A stretch of 42,154 bases of DNA, from positions 1 through 42,154 of the forward strand of contig VYCT01000216.1 of assembly GCA_009843785.1 (NCBI GenBank). Reading direction: 5' to 3'. A model generated the notes under the pieces. The model was not told the DNA's origin and did not search any database. It saw only the letters and a program-made list of their open reading frames with translations. The stretch comes from Candidatus Poribacteria bacterium (lineage in GTDB: Bacteria; Poribacteria; WGA-4E; WGA-3G). Made by a program: the position numbers and the translations under genes. The first letter of the stretch is position 1, and each line of letters opens with the position of its first letter. Shown here piece after piece: positions 9,061 to 16,417 of the stretch.

Positions 9061-9103
9061 AACGTAAGACACTGAATATCAAATCTGTTAAGGAGTGGAT
9101 ACC

Positions 9104-11155
9104 ATGCAAAGCCTCAGACCCGCACCATTTAACGTTGTTTCGGGTGACACCGAAGGAACAACATGGGCATTGCCGGAAGGTGCAATCGTCCGGTTAGGGA
9201 AAGGATTTCAATCTTATCAAAACGATAGCGATATCGCACTTTCTCCTGATGGCGCGTATTTTGTTGTTGGAACGTGTGTAGGGCTCTGGTGGTATGATGT
9301 ATCATCCATGTCTCCCATCGCGTTGTGGGAAACAGAGCGAGGCATGATCTCGGCTGTCGATTTTTCGCCGGATGGTAAGTGGGTTGCTACCGCGAATTGG
9401 GATGGCGTTATTAAGATGCTGGATATTCAAAGCGGTGAGTGTGTCGCTCAAATGAAGCCGTCAGAGGAGCATAATATCTATAAACACATTGCCTTTTCTC
9501 CTGACAGCAAATGGATTGCCACCGCGAGTATTGCCACTGCGAAGCAGGTGGGTATTATTGAGGTATTGGATGTTCAAAACGGTGTCTGCATCGCGCAGCT
9601 GGAACGGGAATCGCATGATGGACGATCAAACTATATTCCTCAACTCGGATTTTCGCCGGATGGACGGTATGTCGCTGCTACAGTAGGAAAGCAAACCTAC
9701 ATCTGGGATCCGAGGACAGGTGCGCCAATCGCCAAATTTACAGGTATAAAATTTGCCTTTTCCCCGGACAGCCGCCTGCTTGCGTGCGAGAATCCTTATA
9801 CAATCCCTCATACGACTCCCCCTCGCGGTGCCAGCCACATCTCAGTGTGCGATATAGCGACAGGCGAGCGCATCGCTCACTTCACGGAGCATAGCGATAC
9901 ACTGAGGACTATCACATTTTCACCCTGCGGCCAGTTCCTTGCCGCAAGTGATGAAAACAGTAAACTACACGTATGGAATCTCACAGAGGGTTTACTGACG
10001 GAAACTCATACGGATTATGAAATGTCGCGGGTAGAGCCCATCTACTTACCAGACGGAACGCTACTTGCAACTGTGTTTACGCGTGAAACTATTGAGGTAT
10101 GGAACGTCCAACAGCGGCGAAAACTATGGACTTATGAACCGCAACCTGAAAGTATTGGTGATCAATGGTTTTCAGAATGCCCGGAGCTCCCTATTGCTCA
10201 TTTCCAGTCTGATGAACCGAAGCCGATTGACGAAAAACACACCTTCCCAACACTTCATGAGCCTCTGTGTTATCTATATCCGGCAGTATTTTCTCCTGAT
10301 GGAGAGACACTTGCCAGCGGGAGGGCTCTAAAAGGTCTGGTGCTATGGGATATTGGACGTAAGCAGGCGCGTGATATATTCATCCATGATAAACTTTTTG
10401 TTTGTTTCGATGTTTTGGATTTTTTACCTTGTGGAGACATATTAGCTGTCAGCAGAAATCACGACACCTTCAAAGTGTGGCGCATTAGTGAAACAGAAGA
10501 AGTTTCAATTGCTGAGTTCACGTCTCCCACAGAGTTAAGACGACATGTCTTGGCGGTCTCAGGCTATCAAGTTGCCTGTGGCGGTGGCACGCTTTATCTA
10601 TGGGACCTTGAGCACAACCAAAAACCGAAATCACTTATGGGACATACAGAGCACATCTGGTCGTTGGCGTTTTCGCCGGATGGCAAACGACTTGCGAGTG
10701 GATCAAGCGATAAAACTGCACGGATTTGGGATGTTGAAGCAGGCGAAGAAATAGCCATGCTGCCTTTGGATAGGCCTCGCAGGACTATGGCACTTGCCTT
10801 TTCGCCGTGTGGCGGTGTAATTGCTACAGGGATGCAAGGCGAACTTCGGTTGTGGTGTGCTGAAACGCTGACAACGCTTTTTGCGATACCACAGCCACAG
10901 ACAGCGGATCCGTATGCTCTCGCTTTTTCGCCGTGTGGTAAGTATCTTGCATCTGGAACTTGGTGGCAGAAAGGGATGGAGAAGATGGCAATCCGTTTAT
11001 GGGACGTTGCCACAGGCAAGAATATCCATACCTTCTGGGGACATACAACGGATGTGCAATCACTCGATTTCTCTCCGGACGGCACACTGCTGGCGAGTGG
11101 GAGTTTTGACGGCACAATCCTACTGTGGGATGTCAAACCCTTTATTGGCTCTTAA
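9104..11155 (+). CDS. WD40 repeat protein, tandem copy 2
   Basis: Same N-terminus and blade layout; ATG9104 after 'taaggagtggatacc'. Confidence 0.9.
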   Translation: MQSLRPAPFNVVSGDTEGTTWALPEGAIVRLGKGFQSYQNDSDIALSPDGAYFVVGTCVGLWWYDVSSMSPIALWETERGMISAVDFSPDGKWVATANWDGVIKMLDIQSGECVAQMKPSEEHNIYKHIAFSPDSKWIATASIATAKQVGIIEVLDVQNGVCIAQLERESHDGRSNYIPQLGFSPDGRYVAATVGKQTYIWDPRTGAPIAKFTGIKFAFSPDSRLLACENPYTIPHTTPPRGASHISVCDIATGERIAHFTEHSDTLRTITFSPCGQFLAASDENSKLHVWNLTEGLLTETHTDYEMSRVEPIYLPDGTLLATVFTRETIEVWNVQQRRKLWTYEPQPESIGDQWFSECPELPIAHFQSDEPKPIDEKHTFPTLHEPLCYLYPAVFSPDGETLASGRALKGLVLWDIGRKQARDIFIHDKLFVCFDVLDFLPCGDILAVSRNHDTFKVWRISETEEVSIAEFTSPTELRRHVLAVSGYQVACGGGTLYLWDLEHNQKPKSLMGHTEHIWSLAFSPDGKRLASGSSDKTARIWDVEAGEEIAMLPLDRPRRTMALAFSPCGGVIATGMQGELRLWCAETLTTLFAIPQPQTADPYALAFSPCGKYLASGTWWQKGMEKMAIRLWDVATGKNIHTFWGHTTDVQSLDFSPDGTLLASGSFDGTILLWDVKPFIGS

Positions 11156-11201
11156 AACGTCGGACATTGAATGCCAACCTATTTTTTAAGGAGTGAATAT
11201 C

Positions 11202-13289
11202 ATGCAAGACCGCAGACCAGCACCCTTGAATATAGTATCAGGGGACCCCGAAGGAATAACATGGGCCTTACCCGAAGGCGCAATCGCCCGATTGGGAAAA
11301 GGAATTGCATCGTCTGGTCCGGGACCGAAACTGGCACTCCCACCCGGCGGCGTGTATTTCGCAGTTCAAACCCGCATAGGACTCTGGTGGTATGAAATGG
11401 CATCAAAGTCACCGATCGCGCTGTGGGAAACAGAACGAGGGTTGATAGGGAGTGCTGATTTTTCACCCGATGGCGAGTGGATCGCTATCGCCAATTGGGA
11501 TGGTATCCTCAAGGTGATAGATGTTCAGAGTGGTGAGTGCATCGCACAGATGAAGCGGATGGAAGAACAGAATATCTATGCACATGTTGTCTTTTCTCCA
11601 GATCGCAAGTGGATTGCCACCGCGAATCAGAACGGCAATGTTGAAGTCTTGGATGTTCATCAGGGTGTGTGCATCGCGCAGATGGATCGGGGTGAACGTG
11701 ATACGCAATCGAATGACGTTTCTCGGCTTGAGTTTTCGTCAGATGGCAAATTTCTTGCTGCTACTGTGCAAAATCCTAAAATTTATTCGTTCCGCGACGG
11801 TGAACGTAAACTCGTTAACCCTCATACAGAAGGCACGCAAACTTACGTATGGCATCCGGAGACGGGGACACCTATTGTCAAGTTTACAGGTAGTAAACTT
11901 ACCTTTTCTCCGGACAGTCGATTGCTTGCTGGTGCAGCTGCTGATGCAGCTATGCGTAATGATGATCGCGTTGACCGCTGCGTCTCGGTGTGGGATGTAA
12001 CAACGGGTGAACGCATTGCTCACTTCACAGGACATGGTGATTGGGTAAGTTCTGTCGCTTTTTCACCCTGCGGTGAGTTTCTCGTGTCGAGTAGTAGAGA
12101 TAAAAGCCTGCGCGTCTGGGATGTCAAGAAAGGCGCACAAAAGATGGTTTATACGGACTTTGAAGAGTCTTGGGTGGAGCCGTTTTACTCATTAGAGGGC
12201 GAGCTACTTGGAATTGTAAATACACAAAACACCATTGAGGTCTGGAATATCGAATGTCATGAGAAACTATACACTTTAGAATTACCCCCGCGAAGCGTTT
12301 ATGCTAATTGGTTTAAAAAATTTCCGCAACTGGCTATTGCGAACAAAAAGGCTGAGGTTGGCGATGGGCATACATCTTCAACACTTCGTGAGTTTGCCTG
12401 TTATCCAGATCCCGTAATGTTTTTGCCGGATGGAGCAACCCTTGCCGCAAAGGGCTATCGCATGGGGGTTGTGTTATGGAATGTTGGACATAAGCAGGCA
12501 CGGAAAACATTACTGGAGGATAAACGTATCGCCTCTTTTACTGTTTTGCCGTGCGGAAACATGCTGGTTGGCACTTCACGAGACGGAAATGTCACTGTGT
12601 GGGATGCTGAGAAGCATGATGAACCGATTGCCGAATTTACCGAACAGACACAATCGGGATGGCGTATGGTGTTCGCACCGACAGGGGATCGGTTTGCAGT
12701 CGGAAGTAGAGAAGGCACAATCTACTTATACGATCTCAAACATAATGAGAAGTTGAAGCCTCTCACAGGACACACCGATTTGACCTGGTCGGTATTGTTC
12801 TCACCAGATGGCAAGCGACTGGTAAGTGGTTCAAGCGATAAAACTGCCCGTTTGTGGGATGTTGCGTCGGGTGAACAAATTGGGACATTTCCGTTGGATG
12901 AACCTCGGATACTTATGGGGGTAGCATTTTCACCGTGTGGCAATGTGATTGCTACAGGGATGTTCGGCGGACTCCGCTTGTGGTGTGCTGAAACATTGAC
13001 AATGCTTTTGGAGATACCGCAGCCACAGACACAAAAGCCGTACGCCCTCGCTTTTTCGCCGTGTGGTAAGTACCTCGCATCTGGAACTTGGTGGCGGAGA
13101 GAGGAACAAATGGAGAAGATGGCAATCCGGTTGTGGGAGGTTGCTACCGGTGAGGAGATCACGACCCTTTGGGGACATCCAACGGATATACAGTCACTCG
13201 CCTTTTCGCCGGACAACACGCTTCTCGCAAGTGGAAGTCACGACTGCACTATCCTGTTGTGGGATGTGAAACCCTTCATCAGTTCGTAA
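11202..13289 (+). CDS. WD40 repeat protein, tandem copy 3
   Basis: Same N-terminus (PAPLNIVSGDPEGITWALPEGAIARLGKG); ATG11202 after 'taaggagtgaatatc'. Confidence 0.9.
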   Translation: MQDRRPAPLNIVSGDPEGITWALPEGAIARLGKGIASSGPGPKLALPPGGVYFAVQTRIGLWWYEMASKSPIALWETERGLIGSADFSPDGEWIAIANWDGILKVIDVQSGECIAQMKRMEEQNIYAHVVFSPDRKWIATANQNGNVEVLDVHQGVCIAQMDRGERDTQSNDVSRLEFSSDGKFLAATVQNPKIYSFRDGERKLVNPHTEGTQTYVWHPETGTPIVKFTGSKLTFSPDSRLLAGAAADAAMRNDDRVDRCVSVWDVTTGERIAHFTGHGDWVSSVAFSPCGEFLVSSSRDKSLRVWDVKKGAQKMVYTDFEESWVEPFYSLEGELLGIVNTQNTIEVWNIECHEKLYTLELPPRSVYANWFKKFPQLAIANKKAEVGDGHTSSTLREFACYPDPVMFLPDGATLAAKGYRMGVVLWNVGHKQARKTLLEDKRIASFTVLPCGNMLVGTSRDGNVTVWDAEKHDEPIAEFTEQTQSGWRMVFAPTGDRFAVGSREGTIYLYDLKHNEKLKPLTGHTDLTWSVLFSPDGKRLVSGSSDKTARLWDVASGEQIGTFPLDEPRILMGVAFSPCGNVIATGMFGGLRLWCAETLTMLLEIPQPQTQKPYALAFSPCGKYLASGTWWRREEQMEKMAIRLWEVATGEEITTLWGHPTDIQSLAFSPDNTLLASGSHDCTILLWDVKPFISS

Positions 13290-13356: not shown

Positions 13357-13385
13357 TTGATTTCCTGCCTTGGATATGTTATTAT
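13357..13385 (+). promoter_or_regulatory. Sigma70-type promoter
   Basis: TTGATT-17 nt-TATTAT upstream of the ATPase gene. Confidence 0.5.
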
Positions 13386-13436
13386 TTTTATATCACATTC
13401 GCGGAAATAGCAATTTTTTAAACGGAGCCGCTCGTT

Positions 13437-14591
13437 ATGATTATCAATCGGCTTATTGTCAAAAACTGGCGGAATTTTCAGCATACTGATGTTCCGCTTA
13501 GGGAGCGGCAATTTATTGTCGGTCCGAATGCTTCAGGTAAATCCAACCTGTTAGACATTTTTCGTTTTCTGCGCGATATCGCCAAAGCCGAAGGTGGAGG
13601 ACTCCAAAAAGCAATCAATGACCGAGGCGGTGTTTCCCACATTCGGTGCCTGGCCGCGCCACAGGACGTAGAGGTTTCTATTGAAATTCATATTGCCGAC
13701 ACGCCTGATGCCGCTGCAACATGGCGATATGGTGTCGGGTTCCAACAAGAACCGCGGGGGCAGCGCCAAACCCATCTCACATACGAACGCGTCTGGAGAG
13801 CGGATGAACTCCTTCTTGATAGACCTGATGCAGACGACAACGCAGATCCAGATCGTCTTACGCAGACCGCGCTTGAACAGAACGCTGCCAACGCGAAGTT
13901 TCGAGAGATTGGACGCTTTCTTCGCGATGTCACCTATCTTCATCTGGTACCGCAACTCATCCGTTTTGGGGACGCGATTCAAGGCAAAGTTATTGAAGAC
14001 GATCCGTTTGGTCAGGCTTTTATGCAAAGAGTCGCGGGCGTGCATCCAAGCACACGCCGCGCTCGTCTCAAAAGGATTGAACGTGCCTTGAAGATTGTGG
14101 TGCCGCAGTTTGAGGAATTGGCGTTTATTCGGGATAAACGCACAGGGCATCCGCATTTACAAGCGCGTTATTCCGACTGGCAGTTGAACAAAGAGTGGCA
14201 GCGCGAAGACCAATTTTCGGATGGGACGCTTCGGTTGATTGGGCTTTTGTGGGCACTCCTTGAGAATGACTCGCTTATTTTGCTGGAGGAACCTGAACTC
14301 TCCTTAAACGTAGGCATTGTCTCTAAACTCGCACCGCTGTTTGCCCGTATACCGAGAATCCACCAGGGGCAAGTGCTTGTTAGCACACATAGCAGTACGC
14401 TTCTAACAGAACCGTGCATTGACGGCACAGAAGTGCTTTTGCTCACACCTGCCAAAAAGGGAACATCGGTTAAAGTCTCGTCTGATATTGAGGACATTCG
14501 CATCCTTTTAGAAAATGGGTTCACAGTAGGTGAGGTTGTCCTTTCACGAACCAGACCTAAAGATACTGCCGGAGTCAGTCTGATACAATGA
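13437..14591 (+). CDS. AAA_21/OLD-like ATPase (RecF/SMC-type)
   Basis: Walker A 'VGPNASGKSNLLD', signature-like 'QFSDGTLRLIGLL', Walker B 'DSLILLEEPELSL', 'VLVSTHSSTLL'. Confidence 0.88.
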   Translation: MIINRLIVKNWRNFQHTDVPLRERQFIVGPNASGKSNLLDIFRFLRDIAKAEGGGLQKAINDRGGVSHIRCLAAPQDVEVSIEIHIADTPDAAATWRYGVGFQQEPRGQRQTHLTYERVWRADELLLDRPDADDNADPDRLTQTALEQNAANAKFREIGRFLRDVTYLHLVPQLIRFGDAIQGKVIEDDPFGQAFMQRVAGVHPSTRRARLKRIERALKIVVPQFEELAFIRDKRTGHPHLQARYSDWQLNKEWQREDQFSDGTLRLIGLLWALLENDSLILLEEPELSLNVGIVSKLAPLFARIPRIHQGQVLVSTHSSTLLTEPCIDGTEVLLLTPAKKGTSVKVSSDIEDIRILLENGFTVGEVVLSRTRPKDTAGVSLIQ

Positions 14592-15199
14592 GATTAAAGC
14601 ACGTAATTCTCGCAGTTGAGGATGAACTCGGTGAAGCAGTTTCAACGCAAATTCTTAAGAGGTTTGACATCGAAATTTGGAACACAGTCTTCGGTGAAGG
14701 TTATACTTATCTTCAACGCAAAGCAATGGAGTTCAACCGTTCTGCTAACGGCGTAGCTATTTTTATGTTGACCGATTTAGATTCACCCCAAAATTGTCCA
14801 CCACGACTCATCCAATCTTGGATTAAAGGGGCTCTAAATCCTCAGTTTTTCTTCCGCGTCGCAGTCATGGAGGTCGAATCTTGGGTGATGGCAGATCGGA
14901 ATGGTACAGCGAATTTTCTATCAATACCTGTTAATCGCATCCCGCGAAATATTGATGAGATTCCGAATCCTAAAGAATTTCTGGTTTCACTTGCACGTCG
15001 GAGCCAAAAGAGAACGGTGCGTGAGGCATTGATTCCGGCACAGGGCGCGATTCTTCCTGTGGGCAATGAATACAACGCATTTTTGAGTAAATTTGTCAAA
15101 GAACACTGGAATTTAGAACGCGCCGCTACCACCTCTCCCAGTCTAAAACGAACATTAGACCGACTCGCACAAGGCAAAAATGTGAGTGCTAACCAGTGA
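14588..15199 (+). CDS. DUF4276/TOPRIM-like protein
   Basis: 'ILAVEDELGEAV' (acidic), 'FMLTDLDSPQ' (DxD), 'VAVMEVESWVMADR' resembling the DUF4276 'EFEAWLLAD' motif; ATGA overlap with the ATPase. Confidence 0.6.
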   Translation: MRLKHVILAVEDELGEAVSTQILKRFDIEIWNTVFGEGYTYLQRKAMEFNRSANGVAIFMLTDLDSPQNCPPRLIQSWIKGALNPQFFFRVAVMEVESWVMADRNGTANFLSIPVNRIPRNIDEIPNPKEFLVSLARRSQKRTVREALIPAQGAILPVGNEYNAFLSKFVKEHWNLERAATTSPSLKRTLDRLAQGKNVSANQ

Positions 15200-15501
15200 A
15201 CAAAAAATTTCAACGCCACATTGAAGATTTCACCTGCGCACAGTGCGGTGCTGCTGTCAACGGAAACGGCTACACCAATCACTGTCCAGAATGCCTCTGG
15301 AGTCGACACGTTGATGTCAATCCCGGCGACCGATCCGCAACCTGTCAGGGTTTAATGGAACCGGTTGGGTTTACCGTAAAACACGGCAAGTATATCCTTA
15401 CGCACCGCTGCACGGCGTGCGGCATACACAAAAATAACAAAACCTCAAAGAATGACAACTTTGAGGCGATCCTTCGCTTACAAGGAGAAATAGATGTCTA
15501 A
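15196..15501 (+). CDS. RNHCP domain protein (zinc-ribbon-like)
   Basis: 'EDFTCAQCGAAVNGNGYTNHCPECLWSRHVDVNPGDRSATCQGLMEPVGF...HRCTACGIHKNNKTSKND'; GTG start overlaps previous stop. Confidence 0.85.
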   Translation: MNKKFQRHIEDFTCAQCGAAVNGNGYTNHCPECLWSRHVDVNPGDRSATCQGLMEPVGFTVKHGKYILTHRCTACGIHKNNKTSKNDNFEAILRLQGEIDV

Positions 15502-16417
15502 AGAAAAAATTCTGGCGATCGTATCCATCTCTGTTCTCGCTATTGCTACCGTCGTTTTGGGCATCCTGTTCTATTCAACTTCAAACGGACTCGAACAGAC
15601 GCAAGCAGAATTAGCGACGACCCAAACCACACTCCAAGAAACTGAGACTGCAAAAGCGGATATCGAAAAGAAGTTAGCGGAAACCGAAAGCACATTGTCT
15701 GAAACGCGAAAGAACTTGGCAGAGACACGTTCCGAACTCGATCAAACCAAAGAGATATTGCAAAACGCAAGCGAAGCCGCTCGAAAAATCGCCGCTGAAC
15801 GGAACACGCTCCAGCAGGACAAAAGTGCGCTTGAACGCGAAAAAGAGAGTCTTCGCGCAAAACTCACCGAGATTGAATCCGAATTACAACGGATCCGGGA
15901 GCAATCACAACGTTCAATTACGGCTATCCAAGAGCGGTTTAAAGATACAGTCGGTGCCGTGTTAGATGACGCAGGACGGTTGAAACTTGATGTTAAGGGG
16001 AAAATCTTGTTTGAAACAGGCAGCGCGATTCTAAGTACAGATGGGAAAGAACTTTTGGATGCAATCTCGGAAGAGGTTTTACTCAACGCAGACTATTCAG
16101 CTTACGCCATTCGGGTTGAGGGACACACAGATAACACACCCATCGGCGGCGACGCACTGCGGAACTGGAACCTCTCCACCGAACGCGCAATCGCGGCGGT
16201 GAAATACTTGCAGGAACATGCGAATGTGAGTGCGGAACGTCTGGCAGCCACTGGCTACGCCTTCTACCAACCCATAGATACTGCCGAAACGCCGGACGCG
16301 AAAGCCAAAAATCGGAGGATCGAAATTATACTCGTGCCACCACAAGATTTTCTGTCCGAACTCCTAACATCGCTCCAAAATGTGATGCAATCTATTGAAG
16401 CGAAGGCATCTCAGTAG
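15494..16417 (+). CDS. OmpA/MotB-family protein with N-terminal TM helix and coiled coil
   Basis: TM 'ILAIVSISVLAIATVVLGILFY', heptad-rich coiled coil, OmpA motif 'RVEGHTDNTPIGG...NWNLSTERAIAAVKYLQ'. Confidence 0.88.
   Translation: MSKEKILAIVSISVLAIATVVLGILFYSTSNGLEQTQAELATTQTTLQETETAKADIEKKLAETESTLSETRKNLAETRSELDQTKEILQNASEAARKIAAERNTLQQDKSALEREKESLRAKLTEIESELQRIREQSQRSITAIQERFKDTVGAVLDDAGRLKLDVKGKILFETGSAILSTDGKELLDAISEEVLLNADYSAYAIRVEGHTDNTPIGGDALRNWNLSTERAIAAVKYLQEHANVSAERLAATGYAFYQPIDTAETPDAKAKNRRIEIILVPPQDFLSELLTSLQNVMQSIEAKASQ

Follow-up and report, generated by a model that had tools for sequence, protein, structure and literature searches.

The window, a stretch of 42,154 nucleotides from a Candidatus Poribacteria bacterium, carries two overlapping genes (13437-15199) that are, by near full-length matches to both PADLOC models, a HEC-01 candidate-defence pair: an ABC-type ATPase followed by a divergent DUF4276 protein. 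Their properties are best explained by a HEC-01 conflict module of the split OLD type, made of two components, in which an ATPase gates a nuclease and part of the pair is exchanged as a cassette, a reading we consider probable. The pair type is already catalogued; sponge-symbiont Poribacteria keep it at one site, often lose it and exchange it as a cassette. With intact, half-decayed and empty states at a single site in about 60 related genomes, the locus offers a natural experiment on a candidate defence family that has hardly been studied.

The ATPase-DUF4276 pair

The first-pass annotation had described four genes with overlapping stops and starts. All four reading frames are confirmed in the window at these coordinates, with successive overlaps of 4, 4 and 8 nt; in Pfam their products are AAA_21, a weak DUF4276, RNHCP, and OmpA with a coiled coil. 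The 4-nt overlap of the ATPase and DUF4276 genes is kept at 23 of 27 intact syntenic loci and that of the DUF4276 and RNHCP genes at 21 of 27, so the overlaps are not due to chance. The features are the following.

13437-14591, + strand: HEC-01A-type ATPase (AAA_21; OLD/RecF/Rad50-like ABC ATPase), 384 aa; from PADLOC, Pfam and the predicted model
13521-13547, + strand: Walker A GPNASGKSN, residues 29-37; G29, G34, K35, S36 and N37 invariant in 31 homologues
14190-15090, + strand: approximate recombination cassette, the 3' part of the ATPase gene and most of the DUF4276-like gene; limits vary among genomes; from correlations, permutation and sister-pair identity
14214-14225, + strand: ABC signature FSDG, residues 260-263; F260, S261 and G263 invariant, D262 at least 90% (31 homologues)
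14274-14297, + strand: Walker B LILLEEPE, residues 280-287; no variation from L282 to E287 across 31 homologues
14588-15199, + strand: HEC-01B-type protein, divergent DUF4276, putative TOPRIM-like nuclease, 203 aa; from PADLOC, hhalign and the predicted model
14618-14620, + strand: candidate catalytic glutamate E11, in the loop after strand 1; invariant in 32 homologues, position from the model
14774-14782, + strand: candidate DxD, D63-L-D65, at the end of strand 3 of the model; D63 invariant, D65 at least 90% (32 homologues)
14870-14878, + strand: second acidic motif E95-V-E97 in MEVESW, just past strand 4; invariant in 32 homologues
15196-15501, + strand: RNHCP-domain, zinc-ribbon-like protein, a resident neighbour outside the pair; Pfam RNHCP 4.9e-30 and distribution
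15494-16417, + strand: coiled-coil OmpA-domain protein, a resident neighbour outside the pair; Pfam OmpA 4.2e-18 and distribution

The one promoter-like site that had been annotated, TTGATT-17-TATTAT, is present at 13357, but such sites show no excess in the region (two found against 2.9 expected in shuffled DNA). As the 150 bp upstream are, in addition, often poorly conserved in sister-species comparisons, a single promoter is unproven. Upstream of the pair, tandem WD40-repeat genes form an array (9095-13289) whose copy number and identity vary among relatives: the interval from the conserved p5865 gene to the pair, or to RNHCP, holds from none to several copies. One genome only (G047, locus L093) has about 1.4 kb of extra sequence between gene 2 and RNHCP.

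The first product matches the HEC-01A model PDLC04180 over residues 1-381 of 384 (E=5.9e-144, PADLOC-DB) and AAA_21 in Pfam (E 3.5e-33). Its structure is predicted with a pLDDT of 83; the best Foldseek matches of the model are PtuA, of Septu and retrons, which is the closest, then Rad50, SMC and GajA.

The second product matches the HEC-01B model PDLC04194 over residues 1-197 of 203 (E=2.2e-60, PADLOC-DB), directly adjacent to the HEC-01A match. Its score against DUF4276 (PF14103) is 23.5 bits (E 7e-5), for a curated cut-off of 30.2. All 32 aligned homologues match this family, the best one with 5e-8, and the profile of gene 2 aligns with bona fide Poribacteria DUF4276 proteins in hhalign (prob 92, E=7.5e-7), which contain the same pattern of E, DxD and ElEaW. 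By profile match and shared motifs, the product is a DUF4276 protein.

The predicted structure of this protein (pLDDT 89, pTM 0.87) contains strands at residues 5-10, 29-34, 58-63 and 87-92 with helices between them. Its core follows a beta-alpha-beta-alpha-beta order, with E placed after strand 1 and DxD after strand 3: this is the TOPRIM arrangement of acids. A TOPRIM fold with E..DxD, proposed for verification in the first-pass annotation, is supported by the motif and by the strand and helix order of the predicted fold, but not by structural or profile statistics. No significant Foldseek match was obtained between the model and solved TOPRIM structures. The profile aligns E and DxD with those of OLD/DUF4435 TOPRIMs, yet with a non-significant prob of 0.6 (hhalign); OLD-like_TOPRIM is matched by one of the 32 homologues (E=0.056), and when the DUF4276-like profile was searched against the sequences of solved structures, only chance matches came up. 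Judged from the motif and the predicted topology, the gene 2 product is likely a TOPRIM-like nuclease.

HEC names denote genes found embedded within known defence clusters (PMC11411939), and HEC-01 itself is a candidate category. It is mentioned in one genome listing (PMC12724379); in the literature searched we found no experimental test of HEC-01, and essentially nothing on DUF4276, RNHCP or HEC-01 altogether. In at least five lineages outside Poribacteria (Binatia, Gammaproteobacteria, Myxococcales, Thermoanaerobaculia, Dehalococcoidia, Desulfobulbaceae), the two genes keep together with neither RNHCP nor OmpA, as they do at further Poribacteria sites. The proposal of a split-OLD pair thus stands as a conserved ATPase and TOPRIM-like pair, catalogued as HEC-01, present across phyla and conflict-like in its behaviour, but with TOPRIM statistics short of significance.

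Further, more divergent HEC-01 copies are found at non-syntenic Poribacteria sites (L094-L100), one of which (L097) adjoins a type IIG restriction-methyltransferase-like gene. Among about 15 loci scanned, the contexts of distant copies include known defence genes only sometimes: type III/IIG methyltransferases at L059 and L097, argonaute and SspD near some others. In terms of neighbourhood, then, the two-gene pair is conserved across phyla, the four-gene order is not, and a defence island surrounds the distant copies only partly. Carriage by mobile elements was rejected: no copies of the pair were found in phage, plasmid and viral collections, so it has no direct link to such elements.

Most genomes of the window's family contain several more DUF4276 proteins (at L128-L157 and elsewhere). 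At nearly all intact loci, the bona fide DUF4276 genes are directly preceded by an ORF of some 400 aa, and the two such ORFs that were scanned are AAA_21 ATPases. One type among these further DUF4276 proteins forms a second, unrelated pair, which follows the species background weakly or not at all along its whole length, as an independent mobile pair. Pairs of an ATPase with an AriB-like DUF4435 protein, possibly PARIS, are present in the Poribacteria genomes G082, G054 and G028 (L159:158-2313, L160:80-2310 and L162).

Cassette exchange and decay at one site

Gene trees were compared across 24 genomes. The tree of gene 2 contradicts seven of eight well-supported splits when set against OmpA and YjbH, six of eight against RpiA and four of eight against RNHCP; the neighbour genes, set against each other, give 0-2 contradicted splits. 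Sliding windows locate the disagreement along the sequence. Codons 1-160 of the ATPase follow the species background (r 0.70-0.86), the signal is lost from about codon 260 onward and over codons 1-140 of gene 2, and it is back at the C-terminus of gene 2 (partial r 0.51) and full in RNHCP (r about 0.9).

The data points of these correlations are genome pairs, with label permutation as the control. Given the background, the 3' part of the ATPase correlates with gene 2 (partial r 0.88, p=0.0005); given gene 2, its partial r with the background is -0.03, and that of the 5' part is 0.82 (p=0.0005). The same mosaic is sharply visible in sister pairs such as G030/G046, where the 5' part of the ATPase is mostly 93-100% identical, its 3' end and most of gene 2 just 60-75%, and the gene 2 tail with RNHCP 84-100%. 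Faster divergence was rejected as its cause: mean distances are similar in the cassette and its flanks, and third codon positions alone repeat the 5'/3' split. The simplest reading is that a cassette of about 0.9-1 kb would be replaced by homologous recombination between conserved flanking arms. The joint exchange of the ATPase 3' part and the putative nuclease suggests a sensor/effector interface.

The RNHCP site was scored in 57 genomes, the relatives being metagenome-assembled genomes. Both genes are intact in 27, decayed in 12, and neither is present in 18. On the tree of the flanking genes, about 19 losses are required if the pair is never regained; since cassettes are exchanged between lineages, the true history includes regains.

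Six of the decayed loci have a full-length ATPase and a broken gene 2 (G069, G064, G054, G079, G062, G032), two have a late stop in the ATPase in addition to a broken gene 2 (G049, G036), and in four both genes are broken. The converse state, an intact gene 2 beside a broken ATPase, occurs in none of the 57 genomes. Decay of a single partner thus always strikes the putative nuclease, 6:0 for a length-expected share of 0.35; these are few events. On length alone, gene 2 would break first in all six with a probability of 0.0017; counting the two sister genomes among them as one event gives 0.005 for five of five. The pattern fits gene 2 as the costly partner. The ATPases that survive without an intact gene 2 keep an ordinary low dN/dS of about 0.1-0.23, so the decay may be recent. 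Single frameshifts could be assembly errors in metagenome-assembled genomes; large deletions and mosaics recur across many assemblies.

Proposed mechanism and rival readings

The site-wise loss pattern and the cassette exchange point toward a conflict function. In PARIS, AriB is restrained by AriA up to the moment a phage protein is recognised, after which AriB cleaves tRNA (PMC12409363); dyads of OLD-ABC and TOPRIM proteins are described as suicidal back-up effectors (PMC12839542). By analogy with both, we propose an ATPase-gated toxic nuclease. Most likely, the ABC-type (OLD/Rad50-like) ATPase would hold the separate DUF4276 protein, a TOPRIM-like metal-dependent nuclease, in an inactive state. 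Once infection is sensed, the ATPase would release or activate the nuclease, which would cut nucleic acid and stop the infected cell, on the pattern of an ATPase plus separate nuclease known from PARIS and Septu.

The nuclease would bind at the C-terminal part of the ATPase, and the two would together form one interface and specificity unit. Lineages would exchange this unit by homologous recombination in the flanks on the ATPase and RNHCP sides, the RNHCP side being the right-hand anchor. Tentatively, the whole may be seen as a split immune pair at a fixed site that changes its specificity by swapping a cassette of about 1 kb, the N-half of the ATPase and the RNHCP-side tail being the arms, and that loses its toxic nuclease first. 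Allelic cassettes would then reveal the ATPase segment that must match the nuclease, and both the interface and the toxic partner become directly testable.

A role of the pair in housekeeping or DNA repair, of a RecF/OLD-like type and outside defence, is improbable. The likeness of the ATPase to Rad50, SMC and RecF, the low dN/dS of the orphan ATPases and the location at one chromosomal site off mobile elements would all agree with it, but a repair gene would hardly be lost so many times independently, decay nuclease first or pass between lineages as a cassette; the weak or missing background correlation of the other DUF4276 pair type that these genomes carry speaks against it as well.

It is also unlikely that the two genes are a toxin-antitoxin-like addiction pair, kept selfishly and without specific phage sensing, as the AbiEii-type naming of AAA_21 might imply. 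That description is a mere family label, no AbiE components were detected, gene 1 encodes a complete ABC-type ATPase, and a defence catalogue lists the family. Such a pair would have two overlapping genes, as here, and a putative toxin that decays first; its bulky ATPase "antitoxin" would parallel AriA in PARIS, so that the addiction reading overlaps with the ATPase-gated nuclease.

The distribution of the last two genes separates them from the pair. Among 85 genomes of the phylum Poribacteria, 59 of them in the window's family, RNHCP is limited to this family, where it is present in 57 of 59 genomes, normally in a single copy, and is retained where the pair is gone. At most loci it is followed by OmpA, YjbH (- strand) and RpiA (- strand), pair present or not; the OmpA gene is present at pair-less loci and was not detected at some pair-carrying ones (L014, L024). 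RNHCP and OmpA are therefore resident neighbours, as the first-pass annotation had allowed for, and the system is the pair alone, since each persists without the other.

The four-gene module that the same annotation put forward as a candidate, with RNHCP and the membrane- and peptidoglycan-associated OmpA protein as working defence parts in the manner of ZorB in Zorya, is thus very improbable: the overlaps are conserved at most intact loci and the gene order holds at nearly all Poribacteria loci with the pair, but RNHCP-OmpA-YjbH-RpiA stay together in pair-less genomes, the pair occurs without RNHCP and OmpA both in other phyla and elsewhere in Poribacteria genomes, its history differs from theirs in trees and distance correlations, and OmpA is undetected at the two loci named above. 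Gene overlap alone is insufficient evidence for a defence operon, as the two resident neighbours among these four coupled genes show.

Comparison with known systems

With HEC-01, the pair shares full-length model matches for both proteins and an identical two-gene order. It differs in its single fixed site in the Poribacteria core genome, its cassette exchange and its nuclease-first decay; to our knowledge, this combination has not been described for HEC-01.

PARIS, composed of AriA and the DUF4435 TOPRIM tRNase AriB, resembles the pair in having a separate OLD/ABC-type ATPase and a small TOPRIM-type effector in one operon, and in the proposed sensor/effector logic. The second protein is here, however, DUF4276/HEC-01B instead of DUF4435, and the ATPase fits HEC-01A (5.9e-144) far better than AriA (1.9e-29). 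Membership in PARIS was rejected, as the window's second gene has no DUF4435 or AriB match.

Septu and the retron PtuA-PtuB systems also combine an ATPase with a separate nuclease, and PtuA is the best structural match of the ATPase model; PtuB is an HNH nuclease, whereas the partner here is a DUF4276 protein. The N-terminus of the ATPase is related to that of Gabija GajA and the OLD nucleases (an E of about 6e-11 to solved GajA), and the ATPase-TOPRIM logic is shared. The ATPase (384 aa) and the putative nuclease (203 aa) are separate here, in contrast to the fused GajA, and no UvrD-like GajB helicase follows, for which Gabija membership was rejected.

Gene 4 shares with ZorB of Zorya an OmpA/MotB C-terminal domain. 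It has no ZorA, ZorC or ZorD neighbour: no ZorA-type partner stands beside it, its flanks being RNHCP upstream and YjbH and RpiA downstream, and a Zorya-like role was rejected in favour of that of a resident core neighbour. As for the proposed cassette swap, it is comparable to the exchange of specificity subunits in restriction systems.
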